DNA of 40,200 bases from an uncultured Clostridia bacterium. Its GTDB lineage: Bacteria > Bacillota > Clostridia > Oscillospirales > Acutalibacteraceae. Location: contig CAMHCD010000002.1 in assembly GCA_946183545.1 (NCBI GenBank), positions 1 through 40,200 on the forward strand, written 5' to 3'. The translations under genes and the position numbers were made by a program. Positions within the stretch are counted from its first letter, which is position 1, and each line of letters opens with the position of its first letter. Positions 1 to 16,196 of the stretch are shown piece by piece. The notes beneath the pieces were generated by a model. That model saw only the letters and a list, made by a program, of their open reading frames with translations. It made no database searches and had not been told where the DNA came from.

Positions 1-404
1 TGCTGTTCAAACTGATTCTGCTGTTGAACCTGCTGTACAAATTGATTCTGCTGCTCAGGCTGCCAAAGGTTGGGGAGGGGATCATTTTGAATAGTCTCGA
101 ACTTCGTGGCTCCGCCTTGATTGTTTGAGAAAACATTAGACCGCGGATAACTCCGACATTCGTTAATGGTCATCTGAATAATCATATTCTCAAAATTGAC
201 GGGATTATCCAAAGTTTTGATTTGAACCTTGACCTTATCGAACACACTGCGCAGAATGGTTTCGGATTTGGAACGGTCGCCGATTTCCTGATCAATTATA
301 TCACAAAGTTTTTTGTGAAAGGCGTCGTATAGTCTGTCGAGTGATTTCTTTTTGCCTTTTTTGGCTTCAACAATTAAAGAAAGCTCATATTCGGTCATTG
401 GCAT
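1..404 (-). CDS. Partial sigma-70 region-2-like protein with Gln-rich C-terminal part (truncated by window edge)
   Basis: Manual translation of minus strand: MPMTEYELSLIVEAKKGKKKSLDRLYDAFHKKLCDIIDQEIGDRSKSETILRSVFDKVKVQIKTLDNPVNFENMIIQMTINECRSYP...QQNQFVQQVQQQNQFEQ; open to position 1; SD-like GGGAG upstream of ATG at 404 (in-frame ATG also at 410). Sigma-like assignment rests on general resemblance only. Confidence 0.55.
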   Translation of the reverse strand, partial: MPMTEYELSLIVEAKKGKKKSLDRLYDAFHKKLCDIIDQEIGDRSKSETILRSVFDKVKVQIKTLDNPVNFENMIIQMTINECRSYPRSNVFSNNQGGATKFETIQNDPLPNLWQPEQQNQFVQQVQQQNQFEQ

Positions 405-475: not shown

Positions 476-1156
476 TTATACGTTAGTGTATTTTGAGAAC
501 GGCTGCAGATCCAGACGGACATCAGCCATTTCGGCGATTTGCGGCGAGTGAGTTACAATTATTACGCAGCGGTTAAGCTGATGCGCTAAATGAATGAAAA
601 CATTCATAATATCGATACTGGTGTCAATGTCCAGATTACCGGTAGGCTCGTCAGCCAGTATAACGCCGGGTTGGAAGCTGAGTGCGCGTGCAATCGCGAT
701 ACGCTGTTGCTGACCGCCGGAAATTTTCAAAATACGTCTGTTGCCGATCACTTCCGGGTCTAAGCCAACCTCGCGGATCAGCGAATCAACATATTGTTTT
801 TTGTTTTTATAGCTTCCTAAATCTGCGAGCTTGCGTCCCGAGATATCAAGAGAAAGCATAATGTTTTCCCTTACGGTAAACTTAGGCAGCAGGTTGTACT
901 CCTGAAATATTACGCCAACGTATCTGCTGCGGTAAGCATAACGGTCGCTCTCGTCTATGGGATAACCGTTATATGCAATATAGCCTGATGTGGGATCCAT
1001 GATTCCCGACAGCATAGAAAGCAGGGTGGTTTTGCCCGAACCCGACTTACCTGTAATGGCGTAAACTTTGCCTTTTTCAAATTCGTAGTCAAGATTCTGA
1101 ATAACAGGATTGTTCGGATATGCGAACGAAACATTTTTTAAACCTATTACGCCCAT
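476..1156 (-). CDS. ABC transporter ATP-binding protein (MacB/LolD type)
   Basis: Walker A GKSGSGKTT, signature ISGGQQQRIAIARAL, Walker B VILADEPTGNLD. Confidence 0.95.
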   Translation of the reverse strand: MGVIGLKNVSFAYPNNPVIQNLDYEFEKGKVYAITGKSGSGKTTLLSMLSGIMDPTSGYIAYNGYPIDESDRYAYRSRYVGVIFQEYNLLPKFTVRENIMLSLDISGRKLADLGSYKNKKQYVDSLIREVGLDPEVIGNRRILKISGGQQQRIAIARALSFQPGVILADEPTGNLDIDTSIDIMNVFIHLAHQLNRCVIIVTHSPQIAEMADVRLDLQPFSKYTNV

Positions 1157-1166
1157 AATTATCCTC

Positions 1167-2891
1167 CTAATCTCTGTTAGCTAGTATTTGTTTTGGATCG
1201 TACCGTAGGATAAACGCAATTGACGTAAAGCCTGACACAATGGCAAGTCCGACGCCGATTGCAAGCATCTTCAATATAACGAAGATATCGACCGAGAAGC
1301 CAACCTGTGTTACATAACTGACCTCTCCGGTGACCTCACCGTCCTCGGGACGCTCCATGTTTCCGCCGCCTCCGCCGGGCATACCCGGGGTTTGGATCTT
1401 GTTGTTGTCCTCGGTCGTTTGCTGCGCTACCTGTGCTGACAAAAGGGTGTTGGTAATAGGTACCGACACAGCAGCTCCGGCGATTGCGCCTATAAGGATC
1501 GCAACCAGTGTTACTGTCAGTACTTCTATCATAAACATCATGCTCAGCTTGAGCTTTTTAAGACCCATAGCGGCAAGAGCGCCGATTTCATACTTGCGGT
1601 CACGAATGCTGATGACTGAAATGACGATCAGCACGATAGCGCCGATGGCAAGCATCAGATACAGGAAAGTAGTTGCAAAGGATTTGAGGTTCTCCAAGGG
1701 CTTTAATCCTGCCTTAAAAGTGGCAATATCGTTTGATGTGACGATGTATAAGTCCTCGTCCAAGCCGTCTGCCTTTGCTTTGTTCTTTACTTCATCCTTA
1801 AACTGATTGTAATCCTCAACGGACTGCAGAACAAAAGTGCCGGTGAACTGGCTGTTGAGCACTGTTTCATCTTCGTCGGAGGATGAGCTGTCTGAACTGC
1901 CCGAAGATGTTGAAGCTGTTGTTGCTTCGGTGGCTGCCGTTGTTGCGGCGGAATCCTTTGAGCCGGAGCTCGACGAGCTTGAAGTGCTTGAAGTGCCGTT
2001 GTTGGTTTCGTCTGATTTTGTCTCGATATCCTTAACGACCGCGTAGCTTGTAATAATGGTGTTGGAAGGATCCGATCCGCCTGCTGTAGTATTAGAGGAA
2101 GAGTTCTTGTAAATGCCGACGACCTCTAATTCATATGTTTCATCCTCATTTTTGGGATTCTTCAGCTTGATCTTGTCTCCTACCTTTAAGCTGTTTCGGG
2201 TAGCAAGGTTATCCTCGACCAGACAAACATAGTCCGAAGTGTTATCTTTAAACATTTCGCCGTCTGTCAGCTTGCAGACGCTTTCGTCATCTTCGCCGAA
2301 GTCCTCCATAGCCTTATATGCGCTGTATCCGATCAGTGAAAAATCGCCGGCTTTTTCCATCTGCTGCGGTTCCTGCTGAGGGGTCGCGGGCATGGTGGGT
2401 GCTTCGATCTCTTTTCCGGATGGATCGGTCATTTTGGTAGCCTCAACAGTCGTGGCTTCCGTGGCTGTAGAGGAGGAAGTCAGGTCATACTTCTCAATGT
2501 TATCGCCGTCGATCGAGATGGATGCATTATAGTAATAATCCTTAATCAGCGGCTCGTTGCTGTCCTTCTTTTTGAGCTCGTTATACTTTTCCATGTCGTC
2601 AAGAGTAAGGGTATATTCCTTAGTCAGCGACATCATTTCGGGCATAAGCTCGTTCATATCTTCAGAGCCCTTGTTTTCCTTTGCCTTTTCATAAACATAG
2701 CCGCGGTCAATATTGATCTGTGCGGAAATATTCATGTTTTTAAGGCTTTGGGTAGCTGCGGTTTCTGCTGCTTTCTGAATGGACATTGCTACGCAGGCTG
2801 CAGTCGCAATTATGAATACGATCATGCCGATCAGCATATTCCTGCCTAAAGAACGGGAAATGCTTTTTAATGCGTATTTTAATATGAACAT
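1167..2891 (-). CDS. ABC transporter permease, MacB/FtsX-like, with large low-complexity extracytoplasmic region
   Basis: N-terminal TM, large periplasmic-type domain, C-terminal FtsX-like TM block (YLMLAIGAIVLIVISVISIRDRKYEIGALAAMGLKK); adjacent to cognate ATPase. Confidence 0.9.
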   Translation of the reverse strand: MFILKYALKSISRSLGRNMLIGMIVFIIATAACVAMSIQKAAETAATQSLKNMNISAQINIDRGYVYEKAKENKGSEDMNELMPEMMSLTKEYTLTLDDMEKYNELKKKDSNEPLIKDYYYNASISIDGDNIEKYDLTSSSTATEATTVEATKMTDPSGKEIEAPTMPATPQQEPQQMEKAGDFSLIGYSAYKAMEDFGEDDESVCKLTDGEMFKDNTSDYVCLVEDNLATRNSLKVGDKIKLKNPKNEDETYELEVVGIYKNSSSNTTAGGSDPSNTIITSYAVVKDIETKSDETNNGTSSTSSSSSSGSKDSAATTAATEATTASTSSGSSDSSSSDEDETVLNSQFTGTFVLQSVEDYNQFKDEVKNKAKADGLDEDLYIVTSNDIATFKAGLKPLENLKSFATTFLYLMLAIGAIVLIVISVISIRDRKYEIGALAAMGLKKLKLSMMFMIEVLTVTLVAILIGAIAGAAVSVPITNTLLSAQVAQQTTEDNNKIQTPGMPGGGGGNMERPEDGEVTGEVSYVTQVGFSVDIFVILKMLAIGVGLAIVSGFTSIAFILRYDPKQILANRD

Positions 2892-2902
2892 AGCAATCCC
2901 CC

Positions 2903-3142
2903 TTATCCGCCGTTCTGCGGAGGCCTTGTGGGAGGAGCAGGCGGTGTCTCACCGTTTGGTCCTGTAACATCGGGAGTGTTCTGTCCGGGAGGAGCCAGCT
3001 GATCACCCATGCTTTGGTCGGGCTGCTGCTGAGGTGAGGGCGGCCTCTTGTTGCCAAACGCGCCGAGCACAAAGAAGCCTATAGCCAACACAACAACAAC
3101 GATTATACTGATAATGATGATTCTCTTTTTGGTTTTAGACAT
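2903..3142 (-). CDS. Small single-TM protein with Pro/Gln-rich tail ending in GG
   Basis: MSKTKKRIIIISIIVVVVLAIGFFVLGAFGN + 50-aa tail nearly identical to the tail of the neighbouring CDS 3156-4082; co-oriented and tightly spaced. Confidence 0.8.
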   Translation of the reverse strand: MSKTKKRIIIISIIVVVVLAIGFFVLGAFGNKRPPSPQQQPDQSMGDQLAPPGQNTPDVTGPNGETPPAPPTRPPQNGG

Positions 3143-3155
3143 TACTTATTCCTCC

Positions 3156-4082
3156 TTAACCGCCGTTCTGCGGTGGTCTTGTGGGCGGAGCAGGCGGTGT
3201 TTCTCCGTTGGGACCCGTAACATCCGGAATTCCCTGTCCGGGAGGAGCCAGCTGATCGCCCATGCTTTGATCGGGCTGCTGTTGCGGAGCGGGTGGTCTT
3301 CGGTTACCGAACATACCGAGTACAAAGAAGCCGATGATAAGAACAAGAGCCGCAATGATCGCTATTAAAATGATTTTGTTCTTTTTCTTCTTGTTCGGTA
3401 AAGAGAGTGCTGCCGCCGCATACTCTATGTTCGGATTCATATTACCGATGTTGTCCCACAGGCTTCTGAGCCATATGTCGCATTTGACCTCTGCAAGTCT
3501 TTGCTTACCCTTTTGTGTTACGTGAGTCGCGCGTGACAGCGACTGGGTCAGTACGTTCTCCGGGAACGCGTCGGCAAATGATCTGGAGCATACCAAAAAT
3601 GTGTTTTCGCCCTTGGGGAAGGGGGTGGGCTCACTGATTTTAGGAGCGGAGTAGCGTGTGTTGCCAAGATAGATCGGTTCGTTTCCCGAGGTGCCCGTAA
3701 AAACTTCTGTGAGCACGCCGTCAACAAAGTGGAAGATCACATTATCGCCGGCAACAGCGTACATATACTTGTTTTTAAGGAAGAATACTGCGCCTGCGGA
3801 TACAAACGACGGATACTGCGGACTCTGATTAACAAGCACGCCGTTGTTTGCCAACTGAAAGATAGCGTTCATTGCGTCTGCGCTCAGGGCAGGGCGCTTC
3901 ATAAAGCTTTCAATCAGAATACGAATCACCTTGGATGGGGTGGAGTGACCGTCGGTCTTGGGAAGGTTAATGCCGTTTGCCAGACAGCATACGCCTTTTT
4001 GACCTTTCATTTCTACCTGAGAGTTCTCGGGATTAAGATAGTTGTTAGCGTGGTTGCTGATCTTCGCGAATCTTATATCCAT
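3156..4082 (-). CDS. Degenerate PP2C-like domain + single TM + Pro-rich tail
   Basis: SAGAVFFLKNKYMYAVAGDNVIFHFVDGVL and FLVCSRSFADAFPENVL resemble PP2C core segments; followed by KKKKNKIILIAIIAALVLIIGFFVLGMFGN TM and Pro-rich tail. Confidence 0.75.
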   Translation of the reverse strand: MDIRFAKISNHANNYLNPENSQVEMKGQKGVCCLANGINLPKTDGHSTPSKVIRILIESFMKRPALSADAMNAIFQLANNGVLVNQSPQYPSFVSAGAVFFLKNKYMYAVAGDNVIFHFVDGVLTEVFTGTSGNEPIYLGNTRYSAPKISEPTPFPKGENTFLVCSRSFADAFPENVLTQSLSRATHVTQKGKQRLAEVKCDIWLRSLWDNIGNMNPNIEYAAAALSLPNKKKKNKIILIAIIAALVLIIGFFVLGMFGNRRPPAPQQQPDQSMGDQLAPPGQGIPDVTGPNGETPPAPPTRPPQNGG

Positions 4083-6177
4083 GATTCTTCTCGCCTACTT
4101 TCTTTTTTTCTTCTAATTCAAATACTAAAACAAACCTCTGCGGAATCAACTGTTCTTTCTTGATCAGCTTAAATCCATAGAAGGAAAGCTGAGAAATGAT
4201 CAGCTCCGGCATGATTCCGGGTCCGTAATAAGACGGAGTGTCGCGGTCGGTCACATCGTTATCAACAATGATCAGCTGACCGCCTTTTTTAAGTCCTTTT
4301 TGTATGCTCGCAATAAAGTCGTCTTTAACAAACTCGATGTCAGTGATATATACCGCGTGGTACATGGAGCACATAAACACCTTGTCGCATGAGTTTTCTT
4401 TGAGCTTGCAGTCGTTCATCTTTGTAACGATCGTGCTGATATTGGAAACCTTGTAGGTGTCCTTCAAAGCGTCAAGATACTTCATGGCGTCTTTATTGAT
4501 CTCGGTTGCGTAAACCTTACCCTTGCTGCCTACGAGCTTGGAAAACTCATATGTAAAGTAACCGCCGCCGCAGCCGAGGTCGGCAATGGATTCGCCTTCC
4601 TTGATATCAAAAATCCGCATCATCTCGTCTGTTTTCTCCCACAGACAGCGGTTTGGATTATTAAATACAAAGTATTCGTTCCATTCATTCAGGGTGCCGA
4701 TGGGGAAGTCCTTGCCCTCATATTCAAAGGAGGTTTCGATGTCCGCGTCCTCATCCTCCTCATGTTCAAGGTAGAACTTTATGTACAGGTATTTTTTCAG
4801 CTTTTCATAATCGTTTCCGCCAAAGAAATCAAAATACATTTTGTCGCGGTAATCAGACGTCATCTGCTGCTTTACATCGTCGTCGGCAAGATAGTACTCG
4901 CAAAACCACATGAACGCGGTATAGTCATCGCCGATACGCTCCTTTGGCCACAGCTCGGCAAACATATCGTGAGCCTTTTGAACCATCTCACGGTCATTCT
5001 TCATAAAGCCTTCGTACATCATCTTGCCGCAAGCCTTGCCGCGAATTGAATATCCGGCTGTGGAGGTACCGATAATGCGGTAACGGATCAAAGAGCCCGC
5101 ATTGTTTACGTGAATGTTGCAGGGGTCGTCAATGCTGTTGGGGATCTCCTTGAAATTGGTGGGGATGTCTACCTTTTCATAAATCAGAACATACCGCTGA
5201 GGTGTAAACTGATAATCATCCACAAGCTTAAAGCCATAGTGATATAACTGCGAGGTAAGCAGCGCTTTGCTGATGTAGGGACCATGGTAGGGCAGCTCGG
5301 TGCTGTCTACCAAATCGTTGTCAACAATAATCAGCTTGCCGCCGTCAACAAGGGCGTTGCGGATACTGCCTACGAACTTATCGCGCTCAAAATCGGTAAA
5401 CGCAGCGTAAACGTTATGATAAAGCGAACAGATGAATACGGTGTCAACACGCGTATCCTTGTCAAGACCTATACCCTCAAACTGACTTACGACCACTTCA
5501 ACATTTTTGATATTGTTTTTCTTGATGTGGTCGCGAAGAAAGTCAAGGTGCATGGGATTGGTCTCAATGGCATAAACCTTTCCTTCTTCGCCTACGATAT
5601 CGCCGAACTTAAAGGAGAAGTAACCGGGACCGGAACCGACGTCGGCAACACGTTCGCCGGGCTGAATATTGAACTTTTGCATATTCTCTCTTGTTTTTTC
5701 CCAACGTTCGCGGTCAGGATTGTTAAAGAGAATAAAGTCCTCCAAAAAGCGCAGCTTCTTTTTTGTTTCAACGTCGTTTTTATCTACTTCAACAATATGA
5801 TATTTCAGTTGTAAATATTGCTTTAAATCGGCAAAGTTATCCTTTGAAAGCACGTCGTAAAAGCTTTTTACCAACGGTTGGTTCAACAAGTCTCTTTGTG
5901 CGTCCTCGGGAGAAGTCAGGAGCTTGCAGATCCACTCCAGCGCAGTGTATTCGCCGCCGAAGTTTTCATCGGGAATAATCTTTTCATAGATTTCAATTGC
6001 TTTGAGCAGGTCTTTTTTATTGCCCTTGTCAAAGTAATTGAGAATCAGTTTGCCCGCCTTGATGCCGCCTTTTGTAATGTCAAAGGAGTCAAGACTTCCG
6101 ACATGCACAAGACTGTCTTTAGCCGTTACCTTGATTTCGGTAGGCGTTTCATAAAGCGGATTACCTTCTTTGAACAT
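4045..6177 (-). CDS. Tandem-duplicated class I SAM-dependent methyltransferase protein
   Basis: Two SAM-binding motifs GERVADVGSGPGYFSF and GESIADLGCGGGYFTY, each preceded by a related helical segment and FNNPxRxxWEKT; SD AAGGGTGG 5 nt before ATG at 6177 (ORF track extends to GTG 6186). Confidence 0.88.
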   Translation of the reverse strand: MFKEGNPLYETPTEIKVTAKDSLVHVGSLDSFDITKGGIKAGKLILNYFDKGNKKDLLKAIEIYEKIIPDENFGGEYTALEWICKLLTSPEDAQRDLLNQPLVKSFYDVLSKDNFADLKQYLQLKYHIVEVDKNDVETKKKLRFLEDFILFNNPDRERWEKTRENMQKFNIQPGERVADVGSGPGYFSFKFGDIVGEEGKVYAIETNPMHLDFLRDHIKKNNIKNVEVVVSQFEGIGLDKDTRVDTVFICSLYHNVYAAFTDFERDKFVGSIRNALVDGGKLIIVDNDLVDSTELPYHGPYISKALLTSQLYHYGFKLVDDYQFTPQRYVLIYEKVDIPTNFKEIPNSIDDPCNIHVNNAGSLIRYRIIGTSTAGYSIRGKACGKMMYEGFMKNDREMVQKAHDMFAELWPKERIGDDYTAFMWFCEYYLADDDVKQQMTSDYRDKMYFDFFGGNDYEKLKKYLYIKFYLEHEEDEDADIETSFEYEGKDFPIGTLNEWNEYFVFNNPNRCLWEKTDEMMRIFDIKEGESIADLGCGGGYFTYEFSKLVGSKGKVYATEINKDAMKYLDALKDTYKVSNISTIVTKMNDCKLKENSCDKVFMCSMYHAVYITDIEFVKDDFIASIQKGLKKGGQLIIVDNDVTDRDTPSYYGPGIMPELIISQLSFYGFKLIKKEQLIPQRFVLVFELEEKKKVGEKNHGYKIREDQQPR

Positions 6178-6207
6178 GTTAACCACCCTTAATGTTTATA
6201 TTCTTAA

Positions 6208-7881
6208 TTATTTCAAACCGAGAGCATCCTCGGTTGTGTTGTCATCGTATGGATATAGATCACCGTGGATATATTCATCAGGTGCCCACGGAATGAATTC
6301 GTTGCTGTTGAACTCCTCGGCGACTTCGTCGGCTACAAATTTGCCAAGCTCGGTCAGAGTATAGGAGGGATAGCCAAGCACGGGTTTATCAACGACCAGA
6401 CCGGCGTCCATCAGCTTTTTCCACTTCTTTTTGAAGCAATCCTCTATTTCCATATTATTGATCTTGCGGAAACGGTCTTTTCTGACCTCGGTGTTTTTGA
6501 GCGGAAGAGCGATAGACCAGCGAAGCTGCTGCTCCTTGTCACGTACATATCCGCGGTTAAGCGCCATCTTTCCGCTGTCAATGAGGGAATAATACTCATC
6601 AAAGCTGTCGGTGTTGATAAAGAAGCGGTCTCTAAGCGAACTGAACGCGGTCAGACCCAAGCCTATTTGGTCATACTGAGCACAGCACTGATTGTACGCA
6701 TAATGCGAATAGATATAGGGATCCTTAGTGTATACGCGGCGCAGATTGCCTTTTAAGCCGTATAGCTTCAAAATTTCTTCCGCAACAGCCTTTTCCATCA
6801 TGTTTTCCTTAAAATCGGGGAAGAGGGAAGGCTCGCGGTCGTAAAGCAGACCGATTATTCCCTGAAAATCGCCGTAAGCATCGACCTTAAGGCGGTAAAG
6901 CTGGATCTCGTCTATCAAACCTTGCTGATGCAGCAGGCACGCGCGCTCGATGGTATCGGCAAAAATATCTACATTCAATCCCATAAATCCAAAGATGAAT
7001 TCAAGATTCAGCACAAAACCCTTGCGGCGTGTGTTGTCGAGCAGCTCCTGAGTGATTTCAACGCCTTCATCGCGCATCTTGTTGATTTTCTTATAATCCA
7101 CGCAGTCAAACTTATTGCGGCAGTTGTCAACAGCTTCCATTATGGTTTTGACAGTTGCGCGGCGGAACATAAGCTTCAGGATCTCGGGATGGAGCGATTG
7201 TGAGCCGATAGTCAGTCGGTCAACGCCGTATTTTGACATAATAGCCAAACGCTTCAGTCCGTCCTCGCCGGTCAGCGATACTGCGTCCACGTCAAAGTTG
7301 AACTGGGTAACAGAGGTGCGCTCTATTCTGTCGGTGAAGAATTTCATCAGGCGTTCAAATAGATCGGGATCCATATGAGAAGGCGTGCCTCCGCCGAACA
7401 GGATCGCGCGGGTCTTAATTTTTTCAACGCCTAACACCTTCATATAGATGTCCATTTCGCGTTCAAGATAATCCAGATATTTTATCTGATGTTCTCTAAG
7501 CGCCTTGCAGCTGCCAAGCTCGCCGGGATAGTGACAGAAGCTGCAATGCTGAGCGCAAAAGGGGATATGTACGTAAATATCAAAAGTATTATCGTCAGGA
7601 TTCTTATATGTTTTCATTACATCTTCCTGAGAGTGGAACGGATACTGTGTGATGGGAGGGTAGTGTACCGACGGAACAAATTTGCCGGTTGTACAAATCA
7701 GTCCTCTTTGCTGCAGCTCCAATACTTCGTTAACGCGTTTTTCCGCTGCTTTCATTATCTCGTCCCTGTGTTGCAGATAAAGCGAGTTTTCCACAAACTC
7801 AGGCGTTGTTTTTTCAACTCTCCTTACGATTTTTCGGATCGCCATATACTGAGAATCCGAACATTCAGTTTTTGCTAACAT
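6208..7881 (-). CDS. Radical SAM protein, HemN/HemW (coproporphyrinogen III oxidase-like) family
   Basis: YVHIPFCAQHCSFCHYP (CxxxCxxC), FGGGTPSHMDP, HemN-like C-terminal region (GLGLTAFSSLRDRFF ... MALNRGYVRDKEQQLRW). Confidence 0.9.
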   Translation of the reverse strand: MLAKTECSDSQYMAIRKIVRRVEKTTPEFVENSLYLQHRDEIMKAAEKRVNEVLELQQRGLICTTGKFVPSVHYPPITQYPFHSQEDVMKTYKNPDDNTFDIYVHIPFCAQHCSFCHYPGELGSCKALREHQIKYLDYLEREMDIYMKVLGVEKIKTRAILFGGGTPSHMDPDLFERLMKFFTDRIERTSVTQFNFDVDAVSLTGEDGLKRLAIMSKYGVDRLTIGSQSLHPEILKLMFRRATVKTIMEAVDNCRNKFDCVDYKKINKMRDEGVEITQELLDNTRRKGFVLNLEFIFGFMGLNVDIFADTIERACLLHQQGLIDEIQLYRLKVDAYGDFQGIIGLLYDREPSLFPDFKENMMEKAVAEEILKLYGLKGNLRRVYTKDPYIYSHYAYNQCCAQYDQIGLGLTAFSSLRDRFFINTDSFDEYYSLIDSGKMALNRGYVRDKEQQLRWSIALPLKNTEVRKDRFRKINNMEIEDCFKKKWKKLMDAGLVVDKPVLGYPSYTLTELGKFVADEVAEEFNSNEFIPWAPDEYIHGDLYPYDDNTTEDALGLK

Positions 7882-7915: not shown

Positions 7916-7954
7916 GGAAATCTTTAAGGCTGTACCGATGACTTAAAGATTTCC
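7916..7954. repeat. 13-bp perfect inverted repeat (ggaaatctttaag / cttaaagatttcc)
   Basis: Arms 7916-7928 and 7942-7954 are exact reverse complements; 13-nt loop; overlaps stop codon of CDS 7943-9745; no T-tract follows. Confidence 0.9.
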
Positions 7955-9745
7955 TATATATTGATTTTTATAAAGTTCATAATATACACCGTGCATATTC
8001 ATCAGCTGATCATGTGTTCCGGTCTCGGCAATAGAGCCCTCGCTGAACACTGCAATCTTATCGGCATTTTTAATTGTCGACAGTCTGTGAGCTATAATGA
8101 TGCACGTGCGGTTGCTCATCATTTTAAGCATCGCGTTTTGGATTTGCGTTTCGGTTGCCGAATCCACCGAGCTCAGCGCTTCATCAAGTACAAGCGCGCG
8201 CGGGTTTGTCAAAGAAGCGCAAGCCAAACAAAGCAACTGTTGCTGACCGCGGCTGAGGCTTGGATCGTTTGGCGAGATATCTGTGTCATATCCCTTTGAC
8301 AGTTTCTTTATAAAATCATCCGCACCTGTCATTTTTGCCGCTTTAGTGATTTCTTCGGCGTCTGCGTTCAAATTACCGTAGCTCAGGTTATCGGTAACGG
8401 TTCCGTCTATCACCGTCGTGTTCTGAAGTACGGTAGTCACCGTTTTGCGCAGAGTGGCTTTGGGAATATCGCGTATATCCACGCCGTCAATCAGGATCCT
8501 GCCGCTGTCCGGCTCATAGAACCTCATAAGCAGATTGATCAGCGTTGTTTTACCTACGCCGGTTTTGCCAACCAAGGCAACGGTCTGACCGCTTTCTATC
8601 TTTAAGTTGAAGTCATCGAGTACAGGAATCCCTCTGATGTAACAAAAGCTTACATGCTCAAAAGAAATTGAACATGCGTCATTTTTTAATTCCCTGTTTC
8701 TGCCTTCGTCTGTCTCGGTCGATGCGTCGATTATTTCAAAGACGCGTTCGGCAGATGCCAATGCTGTCATAAGCATAGCAAATATTTGTGACAATTCATT
8801 GATAGGTTTGGTAAATTGTCTTGAATATAGGGTAAATGCCTGTATGGTGCCAATGGTAATGCCGAATCCGCCATTGATATACAGCAGCGCTCCGACGGCA
8901 ACAATAAGCAAAAAATTCAGATTGCCGATTATGCACATAACCGGAGACATAGCGCCGCCGAGTACCTGCGCTTTAATACCTGCGTCCATCAAATCGTCGC
9001 TGAGCCTGTCACATTCCGCGACACATTCATCGGTTATATTGTAGCTGTTTACGGTTTTTTTAGCGTCGATGGATTGCTCAACGTGACTGTTCATTTCACC
9101 GACTGCTTTTTGTTGCTTGCGAAAATATCCGAACATTTTTTTCGAGAGAACAACAGTGAACAAAATATTCAAGAACACCGTACTCAGGCAAACAGCTGTA
9201 AGCAGAGGGCTTTTTATAAGCATTATTACTATACAGCCCGTTATGACGATTGCGGACGAAATTGCAGTTCCGATCGCCTGACTTATCAGGTTTGAGATAT
9301 TATCTATATCATTGGTCAGTCTTGCCAGCATATCGCCGCTTTTGTGAGAGTCAAAAAAGCTGACCGGAAGTCTTATAAGTTTTTCGGAAACATCCTTTCG
9401 GATGGAAATAACGGCAGTTTTACTAAGCTTGGCTGCAAGCCGTCCCTGAATGTAGCTGAATAGGGAAGAGAACACGAAAACCGTTAACAGAACAGACAGG
9501 ATTATAATAAGTCCCTGCCAGTCAACGCCGAGCCGTCCCTTTGATATATCCAATGTATCTACCGCCCTGCCGATCAGGTCGGGAATAAGCAGATTGAGCG
9601 CTGTTGAAGCTGACAGCAGCACCAGCATGCCGATAAGCAGGGGGCGGCTGTCGGCAAGATATTTAAGCATGCGTCGCAGAATTTTTCCTGCGTTTGCGGG
9701 AGCGATGCGTTCGCCGCGTTCATCCGGCTGCATCATATTATTCAT
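7943..9745 (-). CDS. ABC exporter (TMD-NBD fusion), second subunit of heterodimeric-type pair
   Basis: Six-TM domain, Walker A GKTGVGKTT, signature LSRGQQQLLCLA, Walker B ALVLDEALSSVD; start at 9745 preferred by SD AAGGCGGTG (ORF track 9778). Confidence 0.93.
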   Translation of the reverse strand: MNNMMQPDERGERIAPANAGKILRRMLKYLADSRPLLIGMLVLLSASTALNLLIPDLIGRAVDTLDISKGRLGVDWQGLIIILSVLLTVFVFSSLFSYIQGRLAAKLSKTAVISIRKDVSEKLIRLPVSFFDSHKSGDMLARLTNDIDNISNLISQAIGTAISSAIVITGCIVIMLIKSPLLTAVCLSTVFLNILFTVVLSKKMFGYFRKQQKAVGEMNSHVEQSIDAKKTVNSYNITDECVAECDRLSDDLMDAGIKAQVLGGAMSPVMCIIGNLNFLLIVAVGALLYINGGFGITIGTIQAFTLYSRQFTKPINELSQIFAMLMTALASAERVFEIIDASTETDEGRNRELKNDACSISFEHVSFCYIRGIPVLDDFNLKIESGQTVALVGKTGVGKTTLINLLMRFYEPDSGRILIDGVDIRDIPKATLRKTVTTVLQNTTVIDGTVTDNLSYGNLNADAEEITKAAKMTGADDFIKKLSKGYDTDISPNDPSLSRGQQQLLCLACASLTNPRALVLDEALSSVDSATETQIQNAMLKMMSNRTCIIIAHRLSTIKNADKIAVFSEGSIAETGTHDQLMNMHGVYYELYKNQYIGNL

Positions 9746-11480
9746 TTGCGTCACCGCCTTCCGCAAATTGTGTATCATATATGCTCTTGTACAGCGGCGA
9801 CGTTTTCATCAATTCTTCATGCGACCCCTGTGCCGCCACATGACCGCAGTCAAGCAGAATGATTCGGTCAGCGTGCATCACACCTGCAATTCGCTGTGAT
9901 ATCAAAACGCTTGTAAGATGTTTATACTGTTTAGTTATATTATCCATGACTTTGCGCTCTGTGTCAAGGTCAAGATTGGAAGTGCTGTCATCAAAAATCA
10001 AAACCGACGGCTCGCGTATCAAAGCTCTTGCTATTGCAACTCGTTGTTTTTGACCGCCTGATAAAGATGCACCTCTTTCCGAAATGACAGTATCATAACC
10101 ATCCGGAAGCTTATCGGCAAATTCATCTACCATAGCAGCGTTAACAGCACGGTTAAAATCGTCCTCGCTGCATTTACAGCCTTTTGTAATGTTGTCGCGC
10201 AGGCTGCCTGCGAGCATATCGCTTTTTTGAAAAACCGGTATCAGATGATCGTGGAGACTCTTTAAATCGTATTTCCGAATATCTCTGCTGTTGAGCAGTA
10301 CCGTACCGCAGTCGGGATCATAAGAACGGATCATCATATGGGCGACCGTGCTTTTTCCCGCTCCGGTAGCGCCCAGAATACCGACGGTTTCACCATTTGA
10401 TATCGTTATATTCAGATCGTCAAGCGCCGGCTTTGGCGCATCCTTGCAGCGCGGATAACGGAAGGTTATACTGTTGAGCTCAAGGCTTTCAAACGGTTCG
10501 TCAAGCTTAACGCTGCCTGATTTAACGCTCGGCTCAAGCTCCATTACCTGCTGCAGCCTTTCGGCTGAAACCTTGGAACGTGATACGTACTGAAAAATGC
10601 CGCCCATTGTCATCATCGACATCATTATTTGCTGCGAATAACTGATCGCCGCCATGATCGAACCAACCTGAATCATTTGAGCCTGTACCTGAAAACCGCC
10701 GATAAATATAACAGCGAGAACAACGGCGTTGAGGAGCAGCATAACAACCGGATTCAAAATCGCCATAAAAAGCTGAACCTTCATTACGGTCTGCGCCAGA
10801 TCGATACTTTGCTTGTCAAAAGAAGCGGATTCGTAATCCTCTTTAACATAAGATTTGATCAGACGGTTATCGGCAACCAGATGCAGAGCGGAGGCATTTA
10901 ATTTATCTGTTTTTTTCTGAATGATCTTAAAAATCGCCGATGAATGTTTAATAAAGAAATACAGAAGAACAACCTGGATAGGCAAAGTGATCAGAAGTAT
11001 CAGTCCGTATACGGCGTCGATCGTCAATACCATTACAATACCCATAATAAACAGCATAAGCGGTTTTACGAGCATTTGAATAAGGATAGCGGAAAACTCG
11101 GTGACAACGCGCGTGTCACTTGTCATACGAGTAATCAGCGCTCCGGGAGTAAAAACGTCGCTTTGCTCCGGCGACAGTGCCATGATCTTTCTAAACGCTG
11201 TTTTTCTTAGATCGCTTCCGAGTTTTTGGGAATAGATATTTGAAAGCACGCAGGAAACAAAACCGCCGATACCGCCGACGACAGCCACCAGCAGCATCAT
11301 AACACCGGCATGTACTACTACGTCAATATTCATGCGAAGTACGCCGTCATCAACTATCTGCTCCATATATTTTGGCTGGAGCACATTTGACGCGACCTCA
11401 ACGACCATCAAAATGATTGCAAATATAACCATTGCAGTGTATGGTTTTAAAAAACGAAATATCTTTTTTAAACTTGTCAT
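9738..11480 (-). CDS. ABC exporter (TMD-NBD fusion), first subunit of pair
   Basis: Six-TM domain, Walker A GATGAGKST, signature LSGGQKQRVAIARAL, Walker B VLIFDDSTSNLD. Confidence 0.93.
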   Translation of the reverse strand: MTSLKKIFRFLKPYTAMVIFAIILMVVEVASNVLQPKYMEQIVDDGVLRMNIDVVVHAGVMMLLVAVVGGIGGFVSCVLSNIYSQKLGSDLRKTAFRKIMALSPEQSDVFTPGALITRMTSDTRVVTEFSAILIQMLVKPLMLFIMGIVMVLTIDAVYGLILLITLPIQVVLLYFFIKHSSAIFKIIQKKTDKLNASALHLVADNRLIKSYVKEDYESASFDKQSIDLAQTVMKVQLFMAILNPVVMLLLNAVVLAVIFIGGFQVQAQMIQVGSIMAAISYSQQIMMSMMTMGGIFQYVSRSKVSAERLQQVMELEPSVKSGSVKLDEPFESLELNSITFRYPRCKDAPKPALDDLNITISNGETVGILGATGAGKSTVAHMMIRSYDPDCGTVLLNSRDIRKYDLKSLHDHLIPVFQKSDMLAGSLRDNITKGCKCSEDDFNRAVNAAMVDEFADKLPDGYDTVISERGASLSGGQKQRVAIARALIREPSVLIFDDSTSNLDLDTERKVMDNITKQYKHLTSVLISQRIAGVMHADRIILLDCGHVAAQGSHEELMKTSPLYKSIYDTQFAEGGDANE

Positions 11481-11543: not shown

Positions 11544-12542
11544 TTATTTATGCTTTGCAAACGAAAAACGCTTGGATGAAAAAATCTCAAAACGCAGTTT
11601 CTTTTGCAGGGTACCCATAATGCCGGTCGGCAAAAACAGAATTACCAAAATCGTGATAATACCCAAAATGATATTGGACCATCCGGGATAACGGGCTAAG
11701 ATCTCCTGCAAAAACACGTAGATCACAGCGCCGACAATAGGGCCGCCTACAGTGCCTGTACCGCCGATGGTAACAATGAATATCATTGAAACCGTCCAGC
11801 TTATGCCAAATCCGTTTTCCGGATAGATTATTCCTTTGTTGATGAAGAATATGCCGCCTGCCAATGTCGTAAAAACCGCGGCAATCAAATAAACAATAAG
11901 CTTATGGCTGAATACATTTACACCGACTGCGGATGCTGCGGTAATATCATCGCGCATCGCTGTCAGTCCGAGTCCTACCTTGGTGCGAAGCAGGCAGTAA
12001 ACGGTGATCATAGCTACAACACAAATCATAAGTGAAAGAATACATATTTCGCCGATGCGCGGATACGGTACGACGCGGATAGTCATTCCGCTGCCTTGTT
12101 CAACGAACTTCCAGCTTAAAAAGAGAGTCGCGAACGCCTCGGCGACCACCCAGGTGGAAATGGAAAAATACATTCCCTGCATTTTGAACAAAATCAACGA
12201 AAGCAGCAAAGCTACGATCGTACTCACAAGCACTCCCACGGCGAGCCCTGCGCCAAGACCCATATGGAATTTGGTAGTCATAACTGCAACAGAGTAGCCT
12301 GCCAAACCTATGTATAATTGTTGTCCCAGACTCGTCATTCCGGCAAAACCCGAAAGCAGGTTCCACATTTCACCAAGGGTAATAAACAAAAAGATTTGTA
12401 TCATATATCGCATAGCGTTATTTGATGCTATACCTGTAATGCAGGAAAGGTAAAGACCGAAAACCAAAGCGATACATATTATAAGCATGGGGATCGAATC
12501 AAGAACCACTACGTCACGCTGTCCAAGTTTTTTTCCTATCAT
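11544..12542 (-). CDS. livM: Branched-chain amino acid/urea-type ABC transporter permease (LivM-like)
   Basis: LivM-type hydrophobic protein with GFAGMTSLGQ and GGTGTVGGPIVGA motifs; within liv-like cluster. Confidence 0.9.
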   Translation of the reverse strand: MIGKKLGQRDVVVLDSIPMLIICIALVFGLYLSCITGIASNNAMRYMIQIFLFITLGEMWNLLSGFAGMTSLGQQLYIGLAGYSVAVMTTKFHMGLGAGLAVGVLVSTIVALLLSLILFKMQGMYFSISTWVVAEAFATLFLSWKFVEQGSGMTIRVVPYPRIGEICILSLMICVVAMITVYCLLRTKVGLGLTAMRDDITAASAVGVNVFSHKLIVYLIAAVFTTLAGGIFFINKGIIYPENGFGISWTVSMIFIVTIGGTGTVGGPIVGAVIYVFLQEILARYPGWSNIILGIITILVILFLPTGIMGTLQKKLRFEIFSSKRFSFAKHK

Positions 12543-12551
12543 CTAAGCCAC

Positions 12552-13394
12552 CTACTTTCCGAAAATGCCCTTGGGCTTGACAATAAGCACTATCAGCAGC
12601 ATGATATAGCTGATAAGGAGACCGTAATTTGCTCCGCCTATGACCTGCGCCATGCCGAACAGTATGCCTGCGATCAGGGTTCCGGGCACACTGCCAAGAC
12701 CGCCGATGACCACCACAACAAAGGCAATCAGCAAATAGCTGCCGCCGGAGCTGGGGTAGAAGGTCCATTTCATACCAACACACAGTCCTGCAAGCGCTGC
12801 GCTTGCCATTGATATGCCCATTGCTATAGCATATACCTTTTTTACACTTACACCCGTCAAGGCGGCAGCGTCGGTATCGTCGGCTGTAGCACGGATCGCT
12901 CTGCCTGTGTGTGTGTATTTCAGAAAAGCAGATAAAGCTGTGATCGCGGATATGCTTATTATAAACAGCACTATGTTGAGAACCGAGATCTCCAGCTCTC
13001 CGATACGAATAGAGGCAACTGCGTAGGATGTGTTGATGTGCTGAGCGTCTGCCGAAAAAATCAAAAGCATTACGTCCTGAAGAATAATCGACAGTCCAAA
13101 CGTGACAAGCAATGCCGGCTCGTTGCCTTTTTTCATAGCCTTGCCTATCAAGAAGTATTGTAACAAAAAGCCTGCCAAAAACATCAGCGGAACCGACACG
13201 AACAGAGTTAAAACAGGGTCGATCCCCAACATCGGCGCCAACACGACCGATAGATACGCGCCCAGCACGATGAATTCGCCGTGTGCAAGATTCGTCAGCT
13301 TAACAATGCCGAATATCATTGTCATTCCAACGCCTAACAGTGCATATACGCCGCCAAGCAGCAAGCCGTTGATAATAGTCTGAATGATATACAT
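12552..13394 (-). CDS. livH: Branched-chain amino acid/urea-type ABC transporter permease (LivH-like)
   Basis: GLLLGGVYALLGVGMTMIFGIVKLTNLAHGEF ... GGLGSVPGTLIAGILFG, characteristic of LivH/UrtB. Confidence 0.92.
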   Translation of the reverse strand: MYIIQTIINGLLLGGVYALLGVGMTMIFGIVKLTNLAHGEFIVLGAYLSVVLAPMLGIDPVLTLFVSVPLMFLAGFLLQYFLIGKAMKKGNEPALLVTFGLSIILQDVMLLIFSADAQHINTSYAVASIRIGELEISVLNIVLFIISISAITALSAFLKYTHTGRAIRATADDTDAAALTGVSVKKVYAIAMGISMASAALAGLCVGMKWTFYPSSGGSYLLIAFVVVVIGGLGSVPGTLIAGILFGMAQVIGGANYGLLISYIMLLIVLIVKPKGIFGK

Positions 13395-13417
13395 TGATCT
13401 CTTCCTAAAACCAAAAC

Positions 13418-14134
13418 CTATATACCGAAATACGCTTTTTTAAGCATTTCGGCGTCAACCTCGTTCGATTTGCCCGACAGCACCATTTTTCCTTTAAGCA
13501 TCACATAAAAGCTGTCGGCGGTACGCAGTGCGCGCTGGGTATCCTGTTCAATCAAAATGACCGAGGTTTTATCATTTTCGTTGATCTGTATGATGCGTTT
13601 GTAAATGTCTTTTATTATCGCAGGGGAGAGTCCCAGCGATATCTCGTCAAATATCAGGCATTTCGGACGAGCCATCAATGCTCTGCCTATAGCTACCATT
13701 TGTCGTTCACCGCCCGAAAGTGTGCCGGCGGGTCGTTTTTTCATTTCTTCCAAAACAGGGAACAGCTCATATACATGCCGCAAGGTTTCCTTTGCGTGCT
13801 TGCGCGCCGACTTCGGAAAGCTGCCCATAAGTAAATTGTCGTGTACAGACATACGGTTAAAACAGCGACTGCCCTGAGGCACCATAGATAATCCGCGTGA
13901 AACGATTTTTTCAGCAGACAGACGAGTGATATCCTCACCCATAAACAACACTTTGCCGGAGGTCGGTTTATGCAGACCCGCTATCGTTTTTACAAGCGTT
14001 GTTTTTCCGGCTCCGTTCAAGCCTATAAGGGTGATTATCTGACCGTGATCAACCGAAAAGCTTGCCTGCTCTAATGCGGAAAAATCACCGTATCCGGCGT
14101 TAAGCTCCTGCACCTGAAGAATGGGTTCACTCAT
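13418..14134 (-). CDS. livF: ABC transporter ATP-binding protein (LivF-like)
   Basis: LIGLNGAGKTTLVKTIAGL, LSGGERQMVAIGRALMARPKCLIFDEISLGLSP. Confidence 0.92.
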   Translation of the reverse strand: MSEPILQVQELNAGYGDFSALEQASFSVDHGQIITLIGLNGAGKTTLVKTIAGLHKPTSGKVLFMGEDITRLSAEKIVSRGLSMVPQGSRCFNRMSVHDNLLMGSFPKSARKHAKETLRHVYELFPVLEEMKKRPAGTLSGGERQMVAIGRALMARPKCLIFDEISLGLSPAIIKDIYKRIIQINENDKTSVILIEQDTQRALRTADSFYVMLKGKMVLSGKSNEVDAEMLKKAYFGI

Positions 14135-14855
14135 TATCATCCACCCCCAAATACAGTCTTTGAACTTCCTCAGAGGAGATAACCTCCTGCGGATCTCCTA
14201 CCATTATGCATTTTCCTTCTGCCATGCACATCAAAGCATCCGTAGAGCCAATCATTGTTTCTATAATATGTTCTATCCAAATAATGGAATGTCCGGCTGC
14301 TTTTAAGTCCGCCACCAGCTTCATTATATCCTTTACCTCGGCGTCGGTAAGTCCTGCCGCTACTTCATCAAGCAACAGCAGCTTTGGAGCTGTGCCCAAT
14401 GCACGGGCGATCTCGAGTCTTTTTCTGTCGAGCAGCGTAAGCTTGCCTGCGGTCAGCTCGCGTTTTTCGTACAGACCCGTTTGTTTAAGGATCCCCAATG
14501 CAAGCTCACGCCCGAACCGTTCGTTATTGCTTGCGCCGTGAACGGCTGCCACCAGTACGTTTTCGTACAGGCTCATGTTTTCAAAGGGCTTCGGTACCTG
14601 AAAGGTTCTGCCCAAGCCCATTTTGCACCGGACGTTGGAGGGAGTGCGCGTAATATCAATGGAATCAAACAAGATACGTCCCGAGCTCGGCTTGATTAGT
14701 CCGAGTAAGGCGTTAAACATTGTAGTTTTTCCGCTTCCGTTTGGTCCGATAACACCAAATACCTGTCCTTCCTTTACCGTAAAAGACAGGTCGTTTAGTA
14801 TTTGTATTCTGCCATAACCGGCACTTATGTCTTGAAATTCCAGAATATTTCCCAT
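14127..14855 (-). CDS. livG: ABC transporter ATP-binding protein (LivG-like)
   Basis: VIGPNGSGKTTMFNALLG, LLDRKRLEIARALGTAPKLLLLDEVAAGLTDAE. Confidence 0.92.
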   Translation of the reverse strand: MGNILEFQDISAGYGRIQILNDLSFTVKEGQVFGVIGPNGSGKTTMFNALLGLIKPSSGRILFDSIDITRTPSNVRCKMGLGRTFQVPKPFENMSLYENVLVAAVHGASNNERFGRELALGILKQTGLYEKRELTAGKLTLLDRKRLEIARALGTAPKLLLLDEVAAGLTDAEVKDIMKLVADLKAAGHSIIWIEHIIETMIGSTDALMCMAEGKCIMVGDPQEVISSEEVQRLYLGVDDNE

Positions 14856-14867
14856 GACATCCCCGTT

Positions 14868-14899
14868 TCAGGCGTCTTTAATAGAGTAAAGACGCCTGA
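14868..14899. repeat. 13-bp perfect inverted repeat between livK-like and livG-like genes (hairpin, possible attenuator/mRNA stabiliser)
   Basis: tcaggcgtcttta (14868-14880) / taaagacgcctga (14887-14899), 6-nt loop; no U-tract on the minus transcript. Confidence 0.9.
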
Positions 14900-14909
14900 T
14901 CTAAGTGCA

Positions 14910-16196
14910 TTATTTCTTTTTGTTGTTAGTTGCGTTTCCTTCGATATATTTGCCGGTGAGCGGAATATCGGGATACAGCGAGTTGTCGATTATCTTAAGC
15001 TGCAGCTCTCCGTTTTCATCGCGCTGCCATTGACCGCCTGTAAGTACGGAGCTGCTGTATTTTAAGCCCTTAAGCTTTTTAGAGTAGTCAACGGAACCGA
15101 CGATCGTTTGACATTTCAGCTTGCCGATTGCTTCCAGAACCTTTTGCTTGTCGGTCGTGCCGGCTGCTTTGAAGGTCTGAACCGCAAGCTCCAAGCCGGC
15201 GTATGCAAAAGCGGTAGGCTGCGGCATGATCCTCTTATTATCTTTTTTATAAATATTGTTGATCTCTTCGCAGTTGATTCCGGTCAAGTCAGACTTGAAA
15301 GGATTGGTAGGAGCCCACCATACCTGAGTCATAATGCCGTCCGCAAGGTCGCCGAGCGCCTCAACGTCGCTTTGAAGCAGGCAGCATTTGCCCATGGTAA
15401 CGCAACCTACCTCAACGCCTGCGGCTATGATAGCGTTATAAGCGTTCATGAAATCCGGGGGAATATTGGTTCCGGCGATTATATCGATCTTCTTTTCCTT
15501 GAATGTGCTTGCGACATTGGTGAAATCCTTTGTGCCGGAGGGGTATTGACCGGGATCGATCGCTTCGTATCCGTCCTTGGCAAGCTTCTTAAGGAACAGG
15601 TCATGCCATGATGTACCGTCGGTGTCATTGGCAAACAAAAGTCCGACCTTTGCGCCTGTGTTCGGCTTGTAGCCTGCTTTGATCCACAACGCTTTTTGAG
15701 ATTCATAAACCTCGTCCAGCGTGTAGAAGAAGTCATATGTCCAGTTGAACTCCTCCAGTGAATTGGCAAGCGGGTCAACGGGGGACTGTGTTGCGATGCA
15801 GGGAACTCCAAAGCGCTCCGCAACCTGCGCAACAGGAATGACCGTGTTGGGAGTTTGGATCGCGATCATCAGATCGATATTGTCCTCCTCGATCAGCTTC
15901 TGCGCAAGCTCTGTGCACTTGTTCTGATTTGATTCGGAGTCATATACTATGACCTCGATCGTTTTTTCCTCGCCGTCCACGGTGATCGGGTGATCCTTTA
16001 CGTAATCGGTTATTTGCTTGACAGCCCATTCGCAGCCTTCTCCGTTACCCGCCAAAGCACCTGTGGTGGGGTTAACATATCCGATTTTGATTGTTTTACC
16101 GGCTTTGCTGTCCGTCGAATTGCCGCAGGAGCTTAAGCTCAGTGCGGTTGTTATTGTTATTGCCAGCACGAGGACAACAGCAATGACTTTTTTCAT
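14910..16196 (-). CDS. ABC transporter substrate-binding lipoprotein (LivK/UrtA-like, type 1 periplasmic-binding fold)
   Basis: Signal/lipobox ALSLSSCGN; KIGYVNPTTGALAGNGEGCEWAVKQI; first gene of liv-like cluster. Confidence 0.92.
   Translation of the reverse strand: MKKVIAVVLVLAITITTALSLSSCGNSTDSKAGKTIKIGYVNPTTGALAGNGEGCEWAVKQITDYVKDHPITVDGEEKTIEVIVYDSESNQNKCTELAQKLIEEDNIDLMIAIQTPNTVIPVAQVAERFGVPCIATQSPVDPLANSLEEFNWTYDFFYTLDEVYESQKALWIKAGYKPNTGAKVGLLFANDTDGTSWHDLFLKKLAKDGYEAIDPGQYPSGTKDFTNVASTFKEKKIDIIAGTNIPPDFMNAYNAIIAAGVEVGCVTMGKCCLLQSDVEALGDLADGIMTQVWWAPTNPFKSDLTGINCEEINNIYKKDNKRIMPQPTAFAYAGLELAVQTFKAAGTTDKQKVLEAIGKLKCQTIVGSVDYSKKLKGLKYSSSVLTGGQWQRDENGELQLKIIDNSLYPDIPLTGKYIEGNATNNKKK

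Follow-up and report, generated by a model that had tools for sequence, protein, structure and literature searches.

Gene organization of the locus

The window, meaning the whole 40,200-nucleotide stretch analyzed, is an entire contig (CAMHCD010000002.1) from an uncultured Clostridia bacterium of the Acutalibacteraceae. Its minus strand carries an operon-like series of genes, referred to below as the cassette and given here from high to low coordinates; "parent" denotes the 308-aa protein, and "mini-gene" and "mini-protein" the short copy that follows it.

7943..11480, minus strand: genes for the two subunits of a heterodimeric MsbA-type ABC exporter (PF00664/PF00005 for 7943-9778)
6208..7881, minus strand: HemN-like radical SAM enzyme, 557 aa (PF04055, E 5e-18)
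4045..6186, minus strand: tandem class I methyltransferase, 713 aa (Methyltransf_31 and others, in two stretches)
3156..4082, minus strand: parent protein, 308 aa, with a predicted PP2C-fold (pseudo)phosphatase-like domain, a transmembrane (TM) helix and a Pro-rich tail (AlphaFold/Foldseek; orthologues)
3309..3377, minus strand: parent TM helix, residues 236-258 (236-259 in the AlphaFold model, where it is a single helix)
3159..3308, minus strand: parent Pro-rich C-terminal tail, residues 259-308 (low pLDDT, no secondary structure; conserved ending)
3143..3155, minus strand: 13-nt spacer between parent and mini-gene, with GGAGGA (matched, through the duplication, by the 2892-2902 spacer)
2903..3142, minus strand: mini-protein, 79 aa, with a short cationic N-terminus, one TM helix and a 50-aa Pro-rich tail (ORF; paralogue of parent residues 231-308)
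2906..3055, minus strand: Pro-rich tail of the mini-protein, residues 30-79 (46/50 identical to the parent tail)
1167..2891, minus strand: FtsX/MacB-type ABC permease with a large extracytoplasmic domain, 574 aa (PF02687, E 1.5e-11)
476..1156, minus strand: LolD/MacB-type ABC ATPase that partners the permease (PF00005, E 4e-34)
1..403, minus strand: N-terminal part of a sigma2-like / Pro-Gln linker / FHA protein, truncated where the contig ends (NCBIfam ECF sigma matches up to 2e-6)

The start of the parent gene overlaps the methyltransferase gene by 38 nt. A search for minus-strand promoters between the genes found none, no Rfam families were found in the window, and the only terminator-like minus-strand site, no stronger than expected by chance, falls within the parent gene. 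Among solved sequences, the closest to the radical SAM enzyme are HemN (1olt, E 2.5e-14) and NocN (9p2u, E 3.5e-6). Genes for a Liv-type ABC importer accompany the cassette (11544-16196 in the window; L010:14722-19404), on its upstream or its downstream side depending on the locus.

Origin of the mini-gene

The mini-gene arose by tandem duplication of the 3' end of the parent gene. Its product is 81% identical to parent residues 231-308 over 78 aa, TM helix included. An initial annotation of this DNA had counted 46 of 50 matching tail residues against over a dozen synonymous codon differences, and the ungapped tail alignment bears this out: nucleotide identity is 124/150, and the 50 codons divide into 29 identical, 17 with synonymous and 4 with non-synonymous differences. 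Confining the similarity to the tails, however, understated it, as the homology spans the TM helix and continues past the stop codon (TAA) and the Shine-Dalgarno sequence up to the next ATG (TAAGGAGGAATAAGTAATG vs TAAGGGGGATTGCTATG); the mini-gene's own Shine-Dalgarno sequence, GGAGGA, stands 7 nt ahead of its ATG. The two copies differ at 62/237 positions, which excludes an assembly artefact, and no further copies of the tail were found in the genome at E<=10.

The duplicated segment was probably about 250 bp long, with ends near parent codon 231 and at the permease start codon. If so, ending at that start codon would have given the fragment its translation start signals in a single step: the permease's own Shine-Dalgarno sequence and ATG would have been placed before the copied TM helix, tail, and stop codon, giving a ready-to-use small gene. 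A literature search on partial duplicates yielding small membrane proteins found nothing specific.

Occurrence in related genomes

A full-length parent is encoded in 12/161 genomes of the genus (that of the window and 11 others), and a thirteenth parent locus, L052, was reached via the methyltransferase. None of the other 12 parent-bearing loci has the mini-gene, and in them the permease gene directly follows that of the parent: the gap was measured at 12-26 nt in ten of these loci, it is 12 nt in L052, and in G109 (L044) the coordinates leave no room for a mini-gene ORF. Among the genomes examined, it thus appears to be an invention of one lineage, whose relatives manage without the extra copy. 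Of the observations that the initial annotation had named as telling against a constrained duplicate, absence from most homologous loci was seen (12/12), and a dN/dS near 1 was not (0.064). Single-sequence patterns (P0002) had no match in genome contigs or viral contigs.

The cassette is rare, and its gene order is kept across loci. Both exporter genes are retained in 11/12 of the other cassettes, the contig of the twelfth (G109) ending inside the methyltransferase gene, and the ATPase is 83-91% identical throughout. Where relatives have named records, most of these are Ruminococcus-type MAGs from the rumen (RUG) or the goat gut.

Several companions of the cassette deserve mention. The radical SAM enzyme and tandem methyltransferase (4045-7881 in the window) share about 85-90% identity across the genus, and the pair recurs at lower identity beside an FHA-ABC transporter fusion in the group comprising L061, L063 and L069, in L061 also with a Ser/Thr kinase; these two enzymes seem to form the core of some as yet undescribed pathway. 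In four cassettes a gene for a MetK-like SAM synthetase lies between the ATPase and sigma2-FHA genes (L040:13474-14655, L045:13399-14577, L048:13157-14338, and on the reverse strand in L046), an insertion that points to a SAM-hungry pathway; the window has none as far as its contig extends. The sigma2-FHA protein has an ECF sigma region-2-like N-terminus, a long linker of Pro/Gln-rich repeats of very variable length, and, in orthologues (L008:8807-10057, L010:12443-14479), a C-terminal FHA domain; no sigma4 domain was found in it.

Selection on the tail and the transmembrane helix

Between parent and mini-gene, the 50 tail codons give dN 0.057, dS 0.89 and dN/dS 0.064 (Nei-Gojobori), while the TM part is far more diverged, with dN 0.37 and saturated dS. 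As an average over both branches, these values indicate strong protein-level selection on the predicted extracytoplasmic tail in both copies, and drift of the TM half with hydrophobicity alone kept. A mini-gene tail drifting neutrally seems unlikely from the simulations (kappa 1-8): the probability of four or fewer replacements is 0.003-0.013 when the mini-gene branch is assigned half of the silent changes, and 0.05-0.11 when it is assigned only 5/17. The earlier suggestion of duplication followed by protein-level constraint is therefore upheld, given that half share of the silent divergence.

Another possibility is that the mini-gene is a functionless duplicate, kept similar to the parent by gene conversion, which would fit its occurrence in a single genome. 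Silent changes among identical residues are also fewer in the tail than in the TM part (37% vs about 70%, Fisher p 0.024), and 29 tail codons are identical where 17.4 would be expected at saturation. Conversion alone, however, cannot yield a tail dS of 0.9 with just four replacements, and silent divergence is likewise lower in the tail than in the TM part in the orthologue pairs G021-G152, G107-G109 and G035-G107, which are beyond the reach of conversion between these two copies. This explanation is accordingly quite unlikely, and the partial conversion that the initial annotation had offered alongside constraint is not needed.

Constraint on the tail varies across the genus. The tails of the G021 and G167 orthologues are 92% identical at a dS of 2.1 (dN/dS 0.03), against 69% identity in the folded domain; in several clades, the tail is fast-evolving (dN/dS 0.3-0.6), and that of the window is 48% identical to that of G021. 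Most orthologue tails close with GP(N/R)GE..P.PPTRP. The terminal GG to which the initial annotation had drawn attention is present in both tails here, but is private to the window genome and not conserved, orthologues ending instead in ...PPTRPPQN, ...RPAQTN, ...RPAKPQ or ...PPKR.

The mini-gene is thus a real, selected, lineage-specific partial duplication, ordinary in its origin. Set against other small membrane proteins from partial duplication, it is an in-frame tandem copy of an anchor and tail with its own Shine-Dalgarno sequence, and the constraint on its product falls on the outer disordered tail rather than on the helix.

The parent as a putative pseudophosphatase

The description of the 308-aa protein as PP2C-like agrees with the fold search. 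The AlphaFold model of the parent (pLDDT 70, 11 sequences) finds STP/PstP PP2C phosphatases as its best Foldseek matches (2pk0, 2cm1, 2j86; E 1.4e-6, probability 1.00), with TM-scores to PP2C phosphatases of about 0.4-0.57. By sequence, neither Pfam nor NCBIfam has a PP2C model that matches the parent at E<=0.1, the distant relatives of the parent likewise match none in Pfam, and the parent profile gave only chance-level matches to the sequences of solved structures. In an alignment of the DG motif by eye, the first Asp position of DG(x)GG is occupied by N, E, S or C (LANGI, LVEGY, LSSGI, LACGI); every member has another residue in place of the CSDG Asp when aligned to the CSDG of the canonical PP2C in L040, a comparison with a weak hhalign score (probability 2%) that rests on motif order. 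The parent would thus be a PP2C by predicted fold only, with neither a sequence-model match nor, by these alignments, the metal-site aspartates. The replacement of both the DG and SDG metal-binding aspartates leads to the reading as a pseudophosphatase: the modeled domain is probably a catalytically dead, cytoplasmic PP2C fold, anchored by one TM helix.

With PP2C/PPM phosphatases such as PstP, STP1, tPphA, SpoIIE and RsbX, the parent therefore shares a predicted fold, but differs in having no sequence-model match, replaced DG/SDG aspartates, a Pro-rich outer tail, and a location in a radical SAM/methyltransferase operon. A C-terminal TM anchor is also found in PstP. In G152 the cassette is closely followed, on its downstream side, by a cluster of canonical FHA, PP2C and Ser-Thr kinase genes (L040:16593-20000), the FHA protein of which contains many near-identical SQSPSYDSEGETTVL repeats.

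In the parent, KKKKNK precedes the TM helix, and the mini-protein begins MSKTKKR; by the positive-inside rule, both are predicted to have the N-terminus inside and the C-terminus outside, in keeping with the earlier placement of the tails outside the cell.

Possible roles of the tail

The FtsX/ATPase genes are accompanied by the TM helix and tail in each of the 13 close loci and also in the distant L062, although the 13 represent one lineage and the co-occurrence amounts to few independent cases. In L061 and L063 the PP2C-like protein ends before the TM helix, and the stretch read contains no FtsX gene; L069 has the radical SAM and methyltransferase genes, no PP2C-like gene, and again no FtsX gene in the stretch read. 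That the tail and TM helix track the FtsX/ATPase pair, and not the enzymes, speaks for a tail that works in the service of the transporter.

The same pattern weakens the idea, raised in the initial annotation, that the mini-protein is a peptide substrate of the radical SAM enzyme and methyltransferase. Here the tails would be modified in the manner of RiPPs, with the mini-protein as a dedicated precursor; the gene neighborhood, the SAM demand of a cassette with a SAM synthetase gene in four loci, and the conserved PPTRP ending are all in its favor. The enzymes, however, are conserved across loci (about 85-90% identical) whose tails are often just 40-60% alike, and L061, L063 and L069 have both enzymes with no tail at all, where a precursor should always accompany its maturase. 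The tail is moreover predicted to lie outside and the enzymes inside, there is no evident leader or cleavage site, and the terminal GG is not conserved. Taken together, these points make a substrate role very improbable.

A further possibility is that the tail binds some other partner outside the cell, such as the cell wall or a surface or environmental ligand, the mini-gene raising its dose. A Pro-rich, disordered, extracytoplasmic tail that varies between clades would suit such a role, but it is absent where the FtsX pair is absent, even though the PP2C-like domain remains; we consider this distinctly unlikely.

The explanation that we prefer, tentatively and at somewhat short of even confidence, is that the duplicated, selected tail is an extracellular docking element on the FtsX-type transporter and that the mini-protein is a free extra copy of it. 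The parent tail would reach out to dock on the adjacent transporter, and the pseudophosphatase, with the FHA protein, might report on or gate a pathway that makes and exports a SAM-dependent product. The mini-protein would be the same docking element minus the cytoplasmic domain: it could bring another tail into the complex as an additional subunit, or, by filling the docking site, adjust what proportion of the transporters are linked to the PP2C-like domain. Resemblance of the tail to the permease loops (PQQEPQQM...) did not exceed that of shuffled tails (P 0.12-0.56).

If the mini-protein were purely a competitor, it would occupy the partner of the parent tail, uncoupling the PP2C-like domain while contributing nothing structural itself. 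The identical N-in/C-out topology, the shared tail, the adjacent same-strand gene and the missing cytoplasmic domain all accord with this, but the sequence gives no separation between such a decoy and an extra subunit, and the relatives do without a mini-gene; we regard a pure decoy as rather unlikely. The docking explanation also has a more specific form, to which we attach a similarly low likelihood: a PP2C-fold pseudophosphatase controlling an FtsX-type transporter from inside by way of a disordered outer tail that docks through its specific sequence, with the stand-alone tail, separated off in the tandem duplication, as a tuneable competitor or second subunit.

Relation to known systems and significance

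Among FtsX/MacB-type transporters with single-pass accessory proteins, the cassette fits in having genes for an ATPase and a large-ectodomain permease after that of a single-pass protein. Its accessory is a predicted PP2C-fold protein with a disordered tail rather than a MacA/HlyD-like adaptor or a histidine kinase. In the way it would work, the parent is closest to such an accessory of an FtsX-type transporter. On the enzymatic side, C10P/C10Q is a cyclopropanase pair of HemN-like radical SAM enzyme and methyltransferase (PMC6050322). As in that pair and in class C methylases such as NocN, the cassette joins a HemN-like radical SAM enzyme to a class I methyltransferase, a likeness that serves as a lead; it differs in its tandem two-domain methyltransferase and in its FHA/PP2C signaling-type proteins.

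The mini-gene finding is interesting but modest, and the cassette itself is undescribed. The duplication amounts to a natural experiment, in which an anchor and disordered outer tail were freed from a folded domain and the tail was kept by selection, which marks the tail as a functional element, probably one that works by itself. Should the specific docking form prove true, it would be a bacterial case of ABC transporter regulation through a short linear motif outside the cell. The locus also offers an entry point to a cassette joining SAM chemistry, export, and FHA/PP2C-type signaling in rumen Ruminococcus-type bacteria.
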